Shown piece after piece: positions 28,037 to 33,193 of a stretch of 64,000 bases of DNA (its first letter is position 1; every line of letters begins with the position of its first letter). The notes beneath the pieces were generated by a model. It was not told the origin of the DNA. It saw nothing but the letters and a program-made list of their open reading frames with translations, and searched no databases. Origin of the DNA: Streptomyces sp. HD (GTDB lineage Bacteria > Actinomycetota > Actinomycetes > Streptomycetales > Streptomycetaceae); the NCBI RefSeq assembly GCF_028369295.1, contig NZ_JAQMYP010000047.1, positions 1 to 64,000 of the forward strand, given 5' to 3'. A program made the translations under genes and the position numbers.

Positions 28037-28717
28037 TCAGGCGCGGGTCGCCCACACATAACGGTGTTCCGGGCGACCCGCGTCGCCGTACTTGAGGGTG
28101 AGGCGGGCCCGTCCCGTGCGTTCCAGGAGCTTGAGATAGCGCTGGGCGGTCTGGCGGCTCACCCCGGTCCGGTCGGCGATCTCCTGGGCCGACAGGGGGC
28201 CTTCGGCGTGCATCAGGGACTGCCGTACGAGCTCCGCGGTGGTGGGGGAGTGGCCTTTGGGCAGGTCCGGCTCCGAGGCGGCGGAGAGCGCGCCGAAGAT
28301 GCGGTCCACCTCGGCCTGTTCCGCCTCGCCGCCACCGTCGAGGGTTTGCCGCAGCTGGGCGTACGCCTCCAGCTTGGCGCGCAGGCCCGCGAAGGCGAAC
28401 GGCTTGACCAGGTACTGGAGTGCGCCGTACCGCATCGCCGCCTGCACCGTCGACACGTCCCGGGCCGCCGTCACCATGATCACGTCCGTCTGGTGGCCGC
28501 GCCGCCGCATCTCCTGGACGACCGACAGACCCGTCCCGTCGGGCAGATAGTGATCCATGAGGACCAGATCCAGCCGGGGCAGCCCCTCCACCTGGCGCAG
28601 TGCCTCGGCCGCGCTGTGCGCCTCACCGGCCACATGGAAGCCCTGCACCTTCTCGACGTAGGCGGCGTTGACCCGCGCGACGCGCGTGTCGTCGTCCACG
28701 ACCAGGACCTCGATCAT
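28037..28717 (-). CDS. CitB/DcuR-type response regulator
   Basis: This 226-residue regulator has a receiver domain with Asp8-Asp10, phosphoacceptor Asp55 (LMDHYLPDGTGL), the conserved Thr in VTAARD and Lys in YLVKPF. The C-terminal HTH (SAQEIADRTGVSRQTAQRYLKLLERTG) is of the CitB/DcuR type, regulators of citrate, C4-dicarboxylate or similar metabolism. Its ATG overlaps the histidine kinase stop by 4 bp (ATGA), so the pair is translationally coupled. The nearby symporter is a natural target candidate. Confidence 0.9.
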   Translation of the reverse strand: MIEVLVVDDDTRVARVNAAYVEKVQGFHVAGEAHSAAEALRQVEGLPRLDLVLMDHYLPDGTGLSVVQEMRRRGHQTDVIMVTAARDVSTVQAAMRYGALQYLVKPFAFAGLRAKLEAYAQLRQTLDGGGEAEQAEVDRIFGALSAASEPDLPKGHSPTTAELVRQSLMHAEGPLSAQEIADRTGVSRQTAQRYLKLLERTGRARLTLKYGDAGRPEHRYVWATRA

Positions 28718-30396
28718 CGCGACTCCTCCTCGGCGACGGTCTGCGGATCTGACGGCACGGTGAGAGCCGGTTTCAGGTCCGGCGCGGCCAGCGCCTCGGG
28801 CAGGACGACGGTGAACTCCGCGCCTCCGCCGGCCGCCTCGCCCACGGTCGCGCTGCCGCCCTGCCGTTCGGCGAGCCTGCGCACCAGGGCGAGCCCGATG
28901 CCGCGCTCGCGGTGGGCCGGCGGCTCCTTGGTGGACCATCCCTCGGTGAAGATCAACTCGCGCTGTTCCTCGGGGATTCCCGGCCCCGTGTCGCGCACCC
29001 TGAGGGTCGCGGTGCGCCCATCGGCACGCAGTTCGACCTCCACGCGCGCGTGCGGCGTGCCCGCGACGGCGTCCAGCGCGTTGTCCACCAGGTTGCCGAC
29101 GATCGTGACGAGGCCCCTGGGGTCGACCAGCCGGTTCGGGAGCCCGGTGCGGTCCGACAGACGCAGCGCGACACCGCGCTCGGCCGCCACGGTCGCCTTG
29201 CCGACCAGCAGGGCGGCGAGCAGTGGGTCCTGGATCTTCTCGGCGACCTGCTCGGCGGTGGCCCGGTGATCACCGACCACCTCGCCGACGAACTCCACGG
29301 CGTCGTCGTACATCTCCAGTTCCAGCAGCCCGAGGAGCGTGTGCATCCGGTTGGCATGCTCGTGGTCCTGGGCGCGCAGGGCATCGATCAGACCGCGGGT
29401 CGAATCGAGCTCCCGGCCGAGCTGCTCCAGCTCGGTGTGGTCGCGCAGAGTGGCCACGGCGCCGCCGTCGTCGGTGGGCATGCGGTTGGCGACCAGGACG
29501 CGCTGGCCGCGGACCGTGAGCAGATCGGTGCCGGTCACGCGGCCGGCCAGCACATCGGTCGTACGGCCGTCGCCGAGCGCCTCGTCGAGGGATCGGCCGA
29601 CGGCCTCGTCGCCGATGCCCAGCAGGCGCCGGGCCTCGTCGTTGAGGAGGCGGATACGGCCGCCGCGGTCCAGGGCGACGACGCCCTCCCGGATGCCGTG
29701 CAGCATCGCCTCGCGCTCCGCGAGTAGCGCCGAGATGTCGGAGAAGGCCAGGTCACGGGTCTGCCGCTGGACCCGGCGGGAGATGAGCCAGGCGGCCAGC
29801 GCGCCGACCGCCAGGGCGCCGCCCGCGTACGCGAACAGCCCCGGGATCGCGTGCAGCAGCCGGGCCCGCACGCTGTCGTACGCGATACCGACCGAGACCG
29901 CCCCGACGATCTTCCCGTCGCCGTCGCGCAGCGGCACCTTGCCGCGCGCTGTGCGGCCGAGTGTGCCGCTGTCGATCTGCATGACCTCGTGACCGGCGAG
30001 GGCCTGGCCCGGGTCGGTCGACACCAGTCGGCCGATCTCGCTCGGGGTGGGGTGGGACCAGCGCACTCCGCGCCGGTCCATCACGACGATGTACTCGGCC
30101 TTGGTGGCCACCCGGATCCGCTCCGCCTCCCGCTGGACCGGTCCGCCGGCCGTCGCGGGCGTGCTCGCCAGGTCCTCGGAGATCTGCGGCTGGGCCGCCG
30201 TGGTCTGCGCGATCGACAGGGCACGGCGCATCGCCTGGTCGTCCAGCTGGTTGCTGAGCGGAGCGAGAAACAGGCCGGTCGCGAGCACCGCGACTCCCGC
30301 GGCGATCGCCACCTGCATCAGCAGCACCTGCGCGAACATCCGCCGGGGCAGAGCCAGGCGCAGGCGACGGGCGGGGGGAGTGGGGCTCATATCCAT
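28714..30396 (-). CDS. CitA/DcuS-type sensor histidine kinase
   Basis: This 560-residue membrane kinase has a TM helix near residues 22-42 (LLMQVAIAAGVAVLATGLFL), an extracytoplasmic PAS-like sensor of about 130 residues, a second TM helix (LFAYAGGALAVGALAAWLIS), a PAS domain, and a DcuS/CitA-type DHp region (QDHEHANRMHTLLGLLELE, His in the HANRMH block). The HATPase part has DNALDAVAG and RDTGPGIPEEQ. Such sensors detect extracellular carboxylates. The start is ATG 30396; a longer frame runs to 30456. It precedes its cognate regulator. Confidence 0.9.
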   Translation of the reverse strand: MDMSPTPPARRLRLALPRRMFAQVLLMQVAIAAGVAVLATGLFLAPLSNQLDDQAMRRALSIAQTTAAQPQISEDLASTPATAGGPVQREAERIRVATKAEYIVVMDRRGVRWSHPTPSEIGRLVSTDPGQALAGHEVMQIDSGTLGRTARGKVPLRDGDGKIVGAVSVGIAYDSVRARLLHAIPGLFAYAGGALAVGALAAWLISRRVQRQTRDLAFSDISALLAEREAMLHGIREGVVALDRGGRIRLLNDEARRLLGIGDEAVGRSLDEALGDGRTTDVLAGRVTGTDLLTVRGQRVLVANRMPTDDGGAVATLRDHTELEQLGRELDSTRGLIDALRAQDHEHANRMHTLLGLLELEMYDDAVEFVGEVVGDHRATAEQVAEKIQDPLLAALLVGKATVAAERGVALRLSDRTGLPNRLVDPRGLVTIVGNLVDNALDAVAGTPHARVEVELRADGRTATLRVRDTGPGIPEEQRELIFTEGWSTKEPPAHRERGIGLALVRRLAERQGGSATVGEAAGGGAEFTVVLPEALAAPDLKPALTVPSDPQTVAEEESR

Positions 30397-30473
30397 GACG
30401 GTACGTGGGCGGGCGGGAAGTCCCGTAGAGGGGTGTGACGTGGATCTCTTGATCAAGGTGGGGTGGTCGGTAC

Positions 30474-31732: not shown

Positions 31733-31820
31733 CTGCCGCAGTGCCGCAGTGCCGCAGTGCCGCAGTGCCGCAGTCCGCCAGTCCGCCAGTCCGCCAGTCC
31801 GGCAGTGCCGCAGCCCCGCA
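31733..31820. repeat. Eleven 8-bp tandem repeats
   Basis: Contiguous octamers run from 31733 to 31820: CTGCCGCA, then four GTGCCGCA, three GTCCGCCA, and variants GTCCGGCA, GTGCCGCA and GCCCCGCA. The array lies between the sucrase/ferredoxin promoter and the 3' end of the HTH-citrate synthase gene. It is a VNTR-like locus. Confidence 0.92.
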
Positions 31821-31834
31821 GTGTCCGGCGCGCC

Positions 31835-33085
31835 CTACTCCGGAAGCGGCTGAGGCGGCTTCGGTCCGGTGTAGTGCCCGCTCGGCCGCATACGCAGCGG
31901 GCGCTCGCCGTACTCCTCCAGGGCGTGGGCGATCCAGCCCGCCGTACGGCCCACGGCGAAGATCGTCTCGCCTGCCGTGGACGGCATGGCGGAGGACGCC
32001 GTGAACACGGCCAGGGCCAGGTCGACATTGGCGTGCAGCGGGGTGTGGCGGGCGGCCGTTGCGACGATGTCGCGGGCCGCGGCGAGTGCGGGTGCCGAGT
32101 GGGGAATGTCCTCCAGGAGCTCGAACAGCACACGCGCGCGTGGATCCTCGCCGGGGTAGAGGCGGTGCCCGAGCCCCGGGATGCGCCGGCCGGCCCGCAG
32201 CTCCTCGGCGATCACGGGACCGGCGTCGCCCTGGTCGAGCACCTCCATGATCAGCTTGTGGGCGAGGCCGCTGGCCGCGCCGTGCAGCGGGCCCTCGATC
32301 ACGCCGAGCCCGGCGGAGACGGCCGCGTAGGCGTGTGCGCGGGCCGACGCCGCGACCCGCACGGCGAGGGTCGAGGCGGCCAGGTCGTGATCGACGAGCA
32401 GGGCGAGTGCCCTGTCCAGGACCCGCAGGCCCGCTTCGTCGGGGGTCCGTCCGCTCAGCCGGCTCCACAGACGGTGCGCGAGCGAGCCTTCGTCGCGATG
32501 GGCGAACCCCGGGCGGGTGAGGGCGGCGACGAGGGTGGGGATGAGGATGCGGGCGGTGCCGAGGACCGCCTCCTCGGACAGGTCGAAGCGCAACGGGTCC
32601 GCCGCCGCGGCGGCGATCGCCGCGACCCGCAACCGGTCGGTGGGGCCTGCGTGTTCGGGCAGGGCGTCGACGGCGTGGCGGGCGGCGGTCACGGAGGACT
32701 CGGGGGCGGCGAAGGTCACGCCGTGGTGCAACCGGCCGGTCCACAGCCACTCGGCCACCTCTTCGAAGGAGTGCCGGGCGGCCAGTTCGGTCGCGTCGAC
32801 GCCCCGGAAGTAGTAGCGGTCGGTGTCGATGAACGTGAGACGGGTGCGCACCGACAGCTCGCCGCCGGATCCCGAACCGCCCGCGCTCTCCCGTCTGTTG
32901 CGTCGGGCGAGCGTCTCGACCTCCTTCGCGTCGAAGGTGCTGCCCCGGCCGCCGGGCGCACGGCGGCTGCTGAGGTGACCGCGGCTCACATACGCGTACA
33001 CGGTCTCGGGCTTCACGCCGAGCAGTTCGGCGGCCTCCTGGGTGGTCAGCCGCCGCCCCGCGGGGCCGGGTTCTTGATCGCGCAT
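31835..33085 (-). CDS. Citrate synthase-like protein with an N-terminal HTH
   Basis: This 416-residue protein joins an N-terminal excisionase/MerR-type winged helix (residues 13-63: LTTQEAAELLGVKPETVYAY, FDAKEVETLARR) to a citrate-synthase domain (residues about 75-416). Catalytic elements are EGPLHGAASG, GLGHRLYPGEDPR and LHANVDLALAVFT, giving His, His and Asp. The HTH could bind DNA, so the enzyme may regulate its own or the neighbouring synthase gene. The start is ATG 33085, 108 bp from the divergent second citrate synthase. A perfect 15-bp palindrome lies between them. Confidence 0.9.
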   Translation of the reverse strand: MRDQEPGPAGRRLTTQEAAELLGVKPETVYAYVSRGHLSSRRAPGGRGSTFDAKEVETLARRNRRESAGGSGSGGELSVRTRLTFIDTDRYYFRGVDATELAARHSFEEVAEWLWTGRLHHGVTFAAPESSVTAARHAVDALPEHAGPTDRLRVAAIAAAAADPLRFDLSEEAVLGTARILIPTLVAALTRPGFAHRDEGSLAHRLWSRLSGRTPDEAGLRVLDRALALLVDHDLAASTLAVRVAASARAHAYAAVSAGLGVIEGPLHGAASGLAHKLIMEVLDQGDAGPVIAEELRAGRRIPGLGHRLYPGEDPRARVLFELLEDIPHSAPALAAARDIVATAARHTPLHANVDLALAVFTASSAMPSTAGETIFAVGRTAGWIAHALEEYGERPLRMRPSGHYTGPKPPQPLPE

Positions 33086-33124
33086 GGAGTCACCGTATCC
33101 AGGCCGTCGAGCATTCAGTTCTGC

Positions 33125-33159
33125 ATTGATTCAATCAATATTGACAGAGAAATAGTCAA
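33125..33159. promoter_or_regulatory. Palindromes in the divergent citrate synthase promoter region
   Basis: ATTGATTCAATCAAT (33125-33139) is a perfect 15-bp palindrome in an unusually AT-rich stretch. TTGAC-N9-GTCAA (33141-33159) follows and includes a TTGACA -35-like hexamer for the rightward gene. The layout suits control of both divergent genes by one DNA-binding protein, possibly the HTH-citrate synthase. Confidence 0.65.
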
Positions 33160-33193
33160 GCATGGACAGTCAAATCAAGTACAGGGAGGAATC

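Follow-up and report, generated by a model that had tools for sequence, protein, structure and literature searches.

Divergent Locus and Spacer

The window, by which the whole analysed stretch of 64,000 nucleotides from Streptomyces sp. HD is meant, contains two citrate synthase genes in a divergent layout, one (HTH-CS) read from the minus strand and the other (CS2) from the plus strand, and their start codons bound the spacer listed in Table 1. The GC content of this spacer is 44%, compared with 70.5% for the window. The original prediction had described a symmetric palindrome in a 108-nt divergent spacer between an HTH-citrate synthase and a second citrate synthase, and its coordinates are confirmed here; the palindrome, ATTGATTCAATCAAT, consists of two 7-bp arms around one central base, at which it differs from its reverse complement, so that it is not an exact self reverse complement.

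Table 1. Features of the divergent locus in the window and of the unlinked site in the same genome.
Feature	Position	Strand	Description
HTH-CS, 416 aa	31835-33085	minus	N-terminal MerR/HTH_17-type HTH and citrate synthase domain
Citrate synthase domain of HTH-CS	31883-32860	minus	Residues 76-401
HTH domain of HTH-CS	32897-33049	minus	Residues 13-63; contains the segment LGVKPETVYAYVSRG
Divergent spacer, 108 nt	33086-33193		Between the two start codons
Putative -10 (TACGGT)	33092-33097	minus	For a leaderless HTH-CS transcript; persists where the candidate operator is lost
Palindrome	33125-33139	plus	ATTGATTCAATCAAT
Box A	33126-33138		Inward palindrome TTGAT-N3-ATCAA, inside the preceding feature
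Three-half-site element	33126-33145		Box A and outward pair
Outward pair	33134-33145		ATCAA-TA-TTGAC, 2-nt spacing
Box B	33141-33159		TTGAC-N9-GTCAA; from the Streptomyces spacer comparison
Box C	33163-33178		TGGACAGTCAAATCAA; retained in many, not all, Streptomyces spacers
CS2, second citrate synthase, 389 aa	33194-34363	plus	Pfam Citrate_synt 5.7e-109
Class III CoA-transferase gene	G000:C140:53413-54777 (L250, L307)		Candidate operator just upstream

A palindrome with 7-bp arms and a gap of at most 1 nt arose in 0.8% of the 3000 first-order Markov copies made of the spacer, and for 5000 such copies made of its AT-rich part the value was 1.7%; when a gap of up to 10 nt was allowed, these values rose to 2.6% and 6.0%, respectively. 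The window as a whole has 55 palindromes whose 7-bp arms are separated by 0-3 nt, some of them nested. The 10.4-Mb genome contains a single exact copy of the 15-mer, and the closest other matches in it differ at one and two positions. The looser pattern TTGAYNNNRTCAA occurs at 9 places in this genome against 8 for its reversed control, and this short form alone is therefore non-specific. Taken on its own, the palindrome is modestly unusual (P about 0.01) and by itself would carry no claim; it gains its significance from conservation across genomes. The TTGACA within Box B may have a double role as the -35 of CS2, and a scan of the window spacer for sigma-70 consensus promoters and for terminators found nothing, including no promoter at the putative HTH-CS -10. 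Just downstream of HTH-CS (31735-31825), short tandem repeats with CCGCAGTG/CCGCCAGT-like units were seen by eye.

The HTH-Citrate Synthase

The DNA-binding part of HTH-CS matches the Pfam models HTH_17 (5.4e-10; 39.8 bits, cut-off 27), MerR (1.7e-06; 28.2 bits, cut-off 28.2), and MerR_1 (21.9 bits, cut-off 21.6), and the remainder of the chain matches Citrate_synt (1.1e-64), so that HTH_17 and Citrate_synt occur in one chain and the predicted citrate synthase with its own DNA-binding domain is indeed encoded here. Among NCBIfam models, excise is matched at 30.5 bits (cut-off 28.8), and HTH_BldC stays far under its cut-off (27.1 vs 77 bits). Membership of the citrate synthase family follows from the Pfam match and from the presence of H268, H307, and D355; the protein nevertheless falls under the cut-off of each NCBIfam citrate synthase model matched and therefore represents a divergent branch. 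The AlphaFold2 model (mean pLDDT 88.8, with residues 1-7 and 66-75 below 50) shows the HTH region as folded and has the fold of a citrate synthase, and the 50 PDB fold matches listed for it are all citrate or methylcitrate synthases. Their query TM-scores are 0.61-0.68 and their rmsd is large, at about 7-13 Å, from which it follows that the fold is clear and the arrangement is not closely matched.

Among 214 unique HTH-CS sequences, the HTH residues A19, V24, and K25 are each conserved in 212 and S34 in all 214, and the invariance of L22, G23, T28, Y30, Y32, R35, and G36 is by construction, as these belonged to the selection pattern. Three loci outside the HTH pattern (L145, L159, and L168) differ at one to three pattern positions, for example LDVKIETVYAYASRG, and the spacer element is present at all three. 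The residues H233, H268, H307, R316, D355, R380, and R400, which from citrate synthase enzymology we take to be oxaloacetate-binding or catalytic, are nearly invariant in the same 214 sequences (D355, R316, and R380 in 214; H233 in 213; H268 and R400 in 212; H307 in 209), which makes substrate binding by HTH-CS plausible. One catalytic histidine is absent at L107, L137, L140, L143, L163, and L175 and in the paralogue L081. The second catalytic histidine is the one replaced at L107, L137, L140, and L143 (GLGH to GLGI, GLGA, GVGI, or GLGM), where CS2 and the element are retained, and the first is gone at L175, where the element is likewise retained. L081 (G003:C22:28245-29450) is a second, distant HTH-CS paralogue (34% identity) that lacks both the element and the first catalytic histidine.

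CS2 and its Replacements

By family score, CS2 is an ordinary citrate synthase, reaching 347.5 bits against the NCBIfam model PRK12350 (cut-off 332). At the position of the catalytic aspartate of HTH-CS it has a glutamate, as do all 171 matches to the motif around that residue, and a glutamate is also found there in B. subtilis citrate synthase 1 (2c6x) and M. tuberculosis CitA (8gmf). In two genomes, G012 (L060; C1:3425795 and C1:7966168) and G095 (L015 and L119; C7:249660 and C7:85686), CS2 lies in two distant parts with the N-terminal piece adjoining HTH-CS, as if a rearrangement breakpoint had fallen inside the gene.

At ten loci (L149, L152, L153, L161, L162, L164, L165, L167, L170, and L219), CS2 is replaced by an acyl-CoA condensing enzyme of the HMGL family. 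The neighbours at L149 and L152 have the Pfam domains HMGL-like and HCS_D2. For the neighbours at L149, L152, and L153, the best NCBIfam match is nifV_homocitr at 230-248 bits (cut-off 462.9), below which, as below all equivalog cut-offs, they remain; assignment as homocitrate, 2-isopropylmalate, or citramalate synthase is consequently unsupported by the curated family models, and the NCBIfam matches of these three included no Re-citrate synthase model. Possible identities of the HMGL-family neighbour are a Re-type citrate synthase and a homocitrate-like enzyme. Several lineages (L110-L113, L115, L156, and L166) have a DUF2332 gene beside HTH-CS or close to it; this gene stands in for CS2 in one sister genus, and at L156 another gene separates it from HTH-CS.

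The Element in Streptomyces Genomes

HTH-CS was found in 78 of 121 Streptomyces genomes and not in the other 43, with split or cut matches in G019, G102, and G112, and spacers were compared for 73 of the 78 loci. The majority of these 73 divergent spacers keep the block TTGAT-N3-ATCAA-YA-TTGACAG, followed by variable bases and then a part near GTCAAGCATGGACAGTCGAATCAAG; about ten have a different right part, and the left end of the conserved spacers carries the putative HTH-CS -10, which reads GTCACCGTATCC on the plus strand. Within the block, the symmetric half-sites are retained and the central bases vary. The extended element TTGAY-N3-RTCAA-YR-TTGAC (TTGATNNNATCAAYRTTGACA, at most one mismatch) was found at 74 sites in 73 of the 121 genomes, compared with one site for its reversed control, and for 73 of the 74 sites an HTH-CS start is no more than 250 nt away. 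The exception is in G032, in which CS2 is inverted away from HTH-CS and both genes retain a copy of the element, the HTH-CS copy with one mismatch; the exceptional site is the one upstream of the inverted CS2. Five genomes with HTH-CS have no match to TTGATNNNATCAAYRTTGACA (G013, G107, G110, G102, and G060), including G102, where HTH-CS is split over two contigs with its upstream sequence unread, and G060, where the spacer (L053) has one extra base between the half-sites.

The strict palindrome TTGATTSARTCAAY is found at 68 distinct sites in 60 of the 121 Streptomyces genomes, with one site for the reversed pattern, and it occurs in 60 of the 78 genomes with HTH-CS and in none of the 43 without it. 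These sites are concentrated at two genes, 51 of them lying at HTH-CS and 16 at a CoA-transferase gene (15 at gene starts, together with one in G101, where the gene is read as two overlapping frames). The single site near neither gene (G079:C1:2861680, L339) is probably due to chance.

The Element Beyond Streptomyces

A wider set, drawn from the family, the class, and named relatives, comprised 237 loci, and at 228 of these the roughly 400 nt preceding the HTH motif were scored for either TTGAY-N2-5-RTCAA or RTCAA-YR-TTGAY. The nine unscored loci lacked the HTH pattern: besides the three variant loci named above, L118 and L119 are CS2 places without HTH-CS, and L105, L141, L155, and L174 had no HTH match. 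In this redundant set, in which some species are present from two collections, one of the loose forms was found at 219 of the 228 loci and was absent at L029, L034, L041, L086 (from the same genome as L041), L081, L163, L194, L199, and L216. When only the 63 upstream regions without any common 30-mer were counted as independent, 55 had the element, whereas 100 dinucleotide shuffles gave a mean of 0.1 and a maximum of 1, and the three-half-site form was present in 38 of the 63 and in no shuffle. The conservation of the palindrome next to homologues, which the original prediction had put forward for checking, was thus borne out both in Streptomyces (73 of 121 genomes) and in these independent regions. 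Within the 63 regions, RTCAA-N0-9-TTGAY has a 2-nt spacing in 49 of 54 occurrences, and TTGAY-N0-9-RTCAA has a spacing of 3 in 34 and of 9 in 23 of 86 occurrences. By their record labels, the positive loci include Actinomadura nitritigenes, Nonomuraea, Nocardia, Asanoa, and Acidimicrobiia MAGs, as well as one MAG labelled Candidatus Dormibacteraeota and one labelled Myxococcota.

The element tracks HTH-CS and not CS2. It is present at 193 of 194 loci with a divergent CS2 and at all three with CS2 in the same orientation, but also at all ten beside a divergent HMGL-like condensing enzyme (three of these neighbours checked against NCBIfam, the others named by tblastn similarity), at all six beside a divergent DUF2332 gene (one checked against Pfam, the others by tblastn), and at 7 of 15 loci with no recognised neighbour. 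Five genomes of one sister genus with a DUF2332 neighbour gave no CS2 match at E 1e-90; both pairs of half-sites are retained in one of them, and in the other four the outward pair alone remains. Of 13 selected genomes, 4 had the exact extended element, including one of the five with the DUF2332 neighbour. Conversely, in G027, where CS2 is present and HTH-CS is absent, the region upstream of CS2 is without Boxes A and B and retains a piece of Box C. In G013, G107, and G110, CS2 and the local element have been lost and the HTH of HTH-CS is retained. These comparisons are to be read with the caveat that species are not independent and that local loss of the element can be a co-deletion with neighbours.

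The Unlinked CoA-Transferase Gene

The 1-mismatch copy of ATTGATTCAATCAAT in the genome of the window sits immediately upstream of a class III CoA-transferase gene (Table 1), whose product matches only class III relatives in NCBIfam, the best at 92 bits against a cut-off of 442. Chance had been considered as the origin of this copy, given the 9 places for TTGAYNNNRTCAA against 8 for the reversed pattern, and was overturned by conservation across relatives. A survey of this gene covered 66 places in 65 of the 121 genomes, counting either TTGAY-N2-4-RTCAA or the outward pair at up to 150 nt as the element. The element was present at 19 of 38 places in genomes with HTH-CS (G065 entering twice) and at 1 of 28 in genomes without it (Fisher P 3e-05, uncorrected for kinship), so that the remaining 19 of 38 places in HTH-CS genomes are without a site, and the one positive place without HTH-CS is in G067. 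Among CoA-transferase genes at least 73% identical, the proportions were 18 of 25 and 1 of 7 (P 0.01, again uncorrected for kinship). In a tree of 30 of the 66 places, six changes are required to account for the six rows without HTH-CS and site; three of these changes are imposed by well-supported branches, and the rows are therefore not one clade.

The three genomes that have lost CS2 and the local element (G013, G107, and G110) all carry the perfect site TTGATTGAATCAA at the CoA-transferase gene, and the regulator would therefore still have a target in them. In G027, which has no HTH-CS, the CoA-transferase gene is without a site. A CATAGT motif near the start codon follows closely after the site. 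A recurring CTGCATAGTGCAGTC motif runs into the CoA-transferase start codon, and in the genome of the window (G000:C140) the gene adjoins an ORF that, by reading, is subtilase-like.

Proposed Mechanism

Taken together, these distributions suggest that HTH-CS is a one-component transcription factor derived from a citrate synthase, which would control its own gene, the divergent condensing enzyme, and the unlinked CoA-transferase through the conserved element, a reading to which we assign a probability of roughly 0.8. The element is very probably a DNA switch bound by HTH-CS, so that an enzyme of core metabolism appears to have turned into a gene regulator. The prediction that the HTH enzyme controls both flanking genes through the palindrome is strongly supported by comparative genomics, in that the element tracks HTH-CS, survives replacement of the neighbour, and is found again at one unlinked gene, there almost exclusively in genomes with HTH-CS; the palindrome as first described was too narrow, however, as the conserved element extends beyond the 15-mer, and a third, unlinked target and the published MtrA binding at the right end of the homologous S. 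coelicolor spacer (PMC12323332) had been missed.

In the proposed mechanism, the HTH of HTH-CS would bind TTGAY-N3-RTCAA-YR-TTGAC, with further half-sites in Boxes B and C, and so control the divergent condensing-enzyme gene (here CS2), the HTH-CS gene, and the class III CoA-transferase gene. Citrate synthases are dimers, and an HTH-CS dimer would therefore offer two HTH domains for paired half-sites. The citrate synthase domain would most likely report oxaloacetate and/or acyl-CoA to the HTH, and sensing of these ligands, the other half of the original prediction, is made plausible by the near-invariant active-site residues. We infer physical binding, the ligand, and the sign of control; for the last, we slightly prefer substrate-relieved repression of the PutA kind to MerR-like activation, and at the CoA-transferase gene the position of the site near CATAGT would fit either occlusion or a MerR-like position. 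A wider formulation, in which HTH-CS is a widespread class of regulators that sense oxaloacetate or acyl-CoA and set the amount of a condensing enzyme (CS2 or the non-homologous HMGL-type enzyme) and of the CoA-transferase, with some lineages being pure sensors with a dead active site, is held with slightly more confidence than doubt.

Alternative Explanations

The conserved spacer might instead serve as an operator for MtrA, a global response regulator, or for the related GlnR, and not for HTH-CS, which we consider unlikely. In the homologous spacer of S. coelicolor, between sco5831 and sco5832, MtrA is reported to shift a probe containing TTGACTTAACTGTCCA at the right end, and expression of both genes is up at late times in the mtrA mutant, which was reported as repression by MtrA (PMC12323332). 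By eye, the complement of TTGACTTAACTGTCCA matches Box C at 14 of 16 positions, and a remnant of Box C persists in G027 beside a CS2 without HTH-CS; for GlnR, an action on citrate synthase genes has been reported in Saccharopolyspora erythraea (PMC10704036). The published MtrA site (PMC12323332) is Box C, however, and not the palindrome, on which ground MtrA was rejected as the sole explanation, and the MtrA consensus GTAACC-N5-GTAACC is unlike TTGAY-N3-RTCAA, so that Box A, compared by eye, does not pass as an MtrA operator. A global regulator would also not be expected to have its strict palindrome at almost only two loci and in none of the 43 genomes without HTH-CS. Part of the spacer conservation may nonetheless belong to MtrA, since it reportedly binds Box C in vitro, and because of the match of its reported site to Box C two inputs would be expected, from MtrA at Box C and from HTH-CS at Boxes A and B.

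Another local regulator could bind the palindrome, for example a neighbouring two-component system of the SCO5828/5829 type, for which the ORFs downstream of HTH-CS (28037-30456) read as a sensor kinase-like and a response regulator-like protein, and such a system might repress SCO5831 in phosphate limitation (PMC9739823); the unlinked CoA-transferase site follows the presence of HTH-CS, however, and this alternative is very improbable. We give hardly any credence to the element as a mere core promoter of the divergent genes, kept by RNA polymerase, with a -35 TTGACA and an AT-rich spacer. The TTGACA at 33141 could serve as a -35 and the spacer is markedly lower in GC than its surroundings, but the symmetric half-sites are kept while their central bases vary, the triple element recurs in independent regions and in no shuffle, and the putative HTH-CS -10 and the CATAGT of the CoA-transferase gene persist in several genomes after the palindrome has been lost, which disfavours a pure promoter signal. 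A chance palindrome in an AT-rich spacer, expected at about 1% and at up to 6% under looser criteria, is refuted by the conservation of the element in Streptomyces and in independent regions and by the distribution of the strict palindrome (60 of 78 vs 0 of 43 genomes).

Relation to Known Systems

Citrate synthase is the entry to the TCA cycle, where acetyl-CoA and oxaloacetate meet. If the regulatory role of HTH-CS is true, it would provide a direct sensor of this node in antibiotic producers, and annotation and metabolic models that count such a citrate synthase purely as an enzyme would be misled; the missing catalytic histidine in some lineages would then show an enzyme turning into a transcription factor. 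Among open-access papers, preprints excluded, no description of an HTH-citrate synthase as a regulator was found, the relevant papers being those on MtrA and GlnR and the proteomic and transcriptomic ones cited here.

Enzyme-derived one-component regulators are known from MocR/PdxR, which join an HTH to an aminotransferase fold, and from the ROK repressors. Like these, HTH-CS would combine an HTH with an enzyme fold as the ligand sensor; it differs in that the fold is that of citrate synthase and in that the catalytic residues are mostly retained. Similarly, HTH-CS shares an HTH_17/MerR-like HTH with BldC and other MerR/excisionase-type proteins, from which it is set apart by the low HTH_BldC score and by the fusion of the HTH to citrate synthase.

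The trigger enzymes PutA, BirA, and NadR are metabolic enzymes with DNA-binding ability, and PutA is like HTH-CS in layout, as the spacer to which PutA binds separates the PutA gene from the divergent putP (PMC8249747). HTH-CS, by its Pfam matches and its model, has the fusion of a DNA-binding domain to an enzyme domain expected of a trigger enzyme. It would be unlike them in that the controlled neighbour is a separate, second condensing enzyme and in that some HTH-CS are without a catalytic residue, and no citrate synthase is among the five E. coli trigger enzymes named in the available part of the source (PMC8249747). A citrate synthase with a regulatory role independent of its enzymatic activity has been reported in Caulobacter, where CitA affects the accumulation of active CtrA and the cell cycle; a DNA-binding domain is unmentioned in the accessible portion of that paper (PMC7083601). 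The control of citA3/citA4 (sco5831/sco5832) by MtrA in S. coelicolor concerns a homologous gene pair and spacer, with an external response regulator acting at Box C, and the sections available of that report leave self-control by SCO5831 unmentioned (PMC12323332). SCO5831 otherwise appears in the parts at hand of three papers through its abundance or expression (PMC9739823, PMC8981147, PMC7324645), and four citrate synthase genes have been reported in S. coelicolor (PMC12323332).
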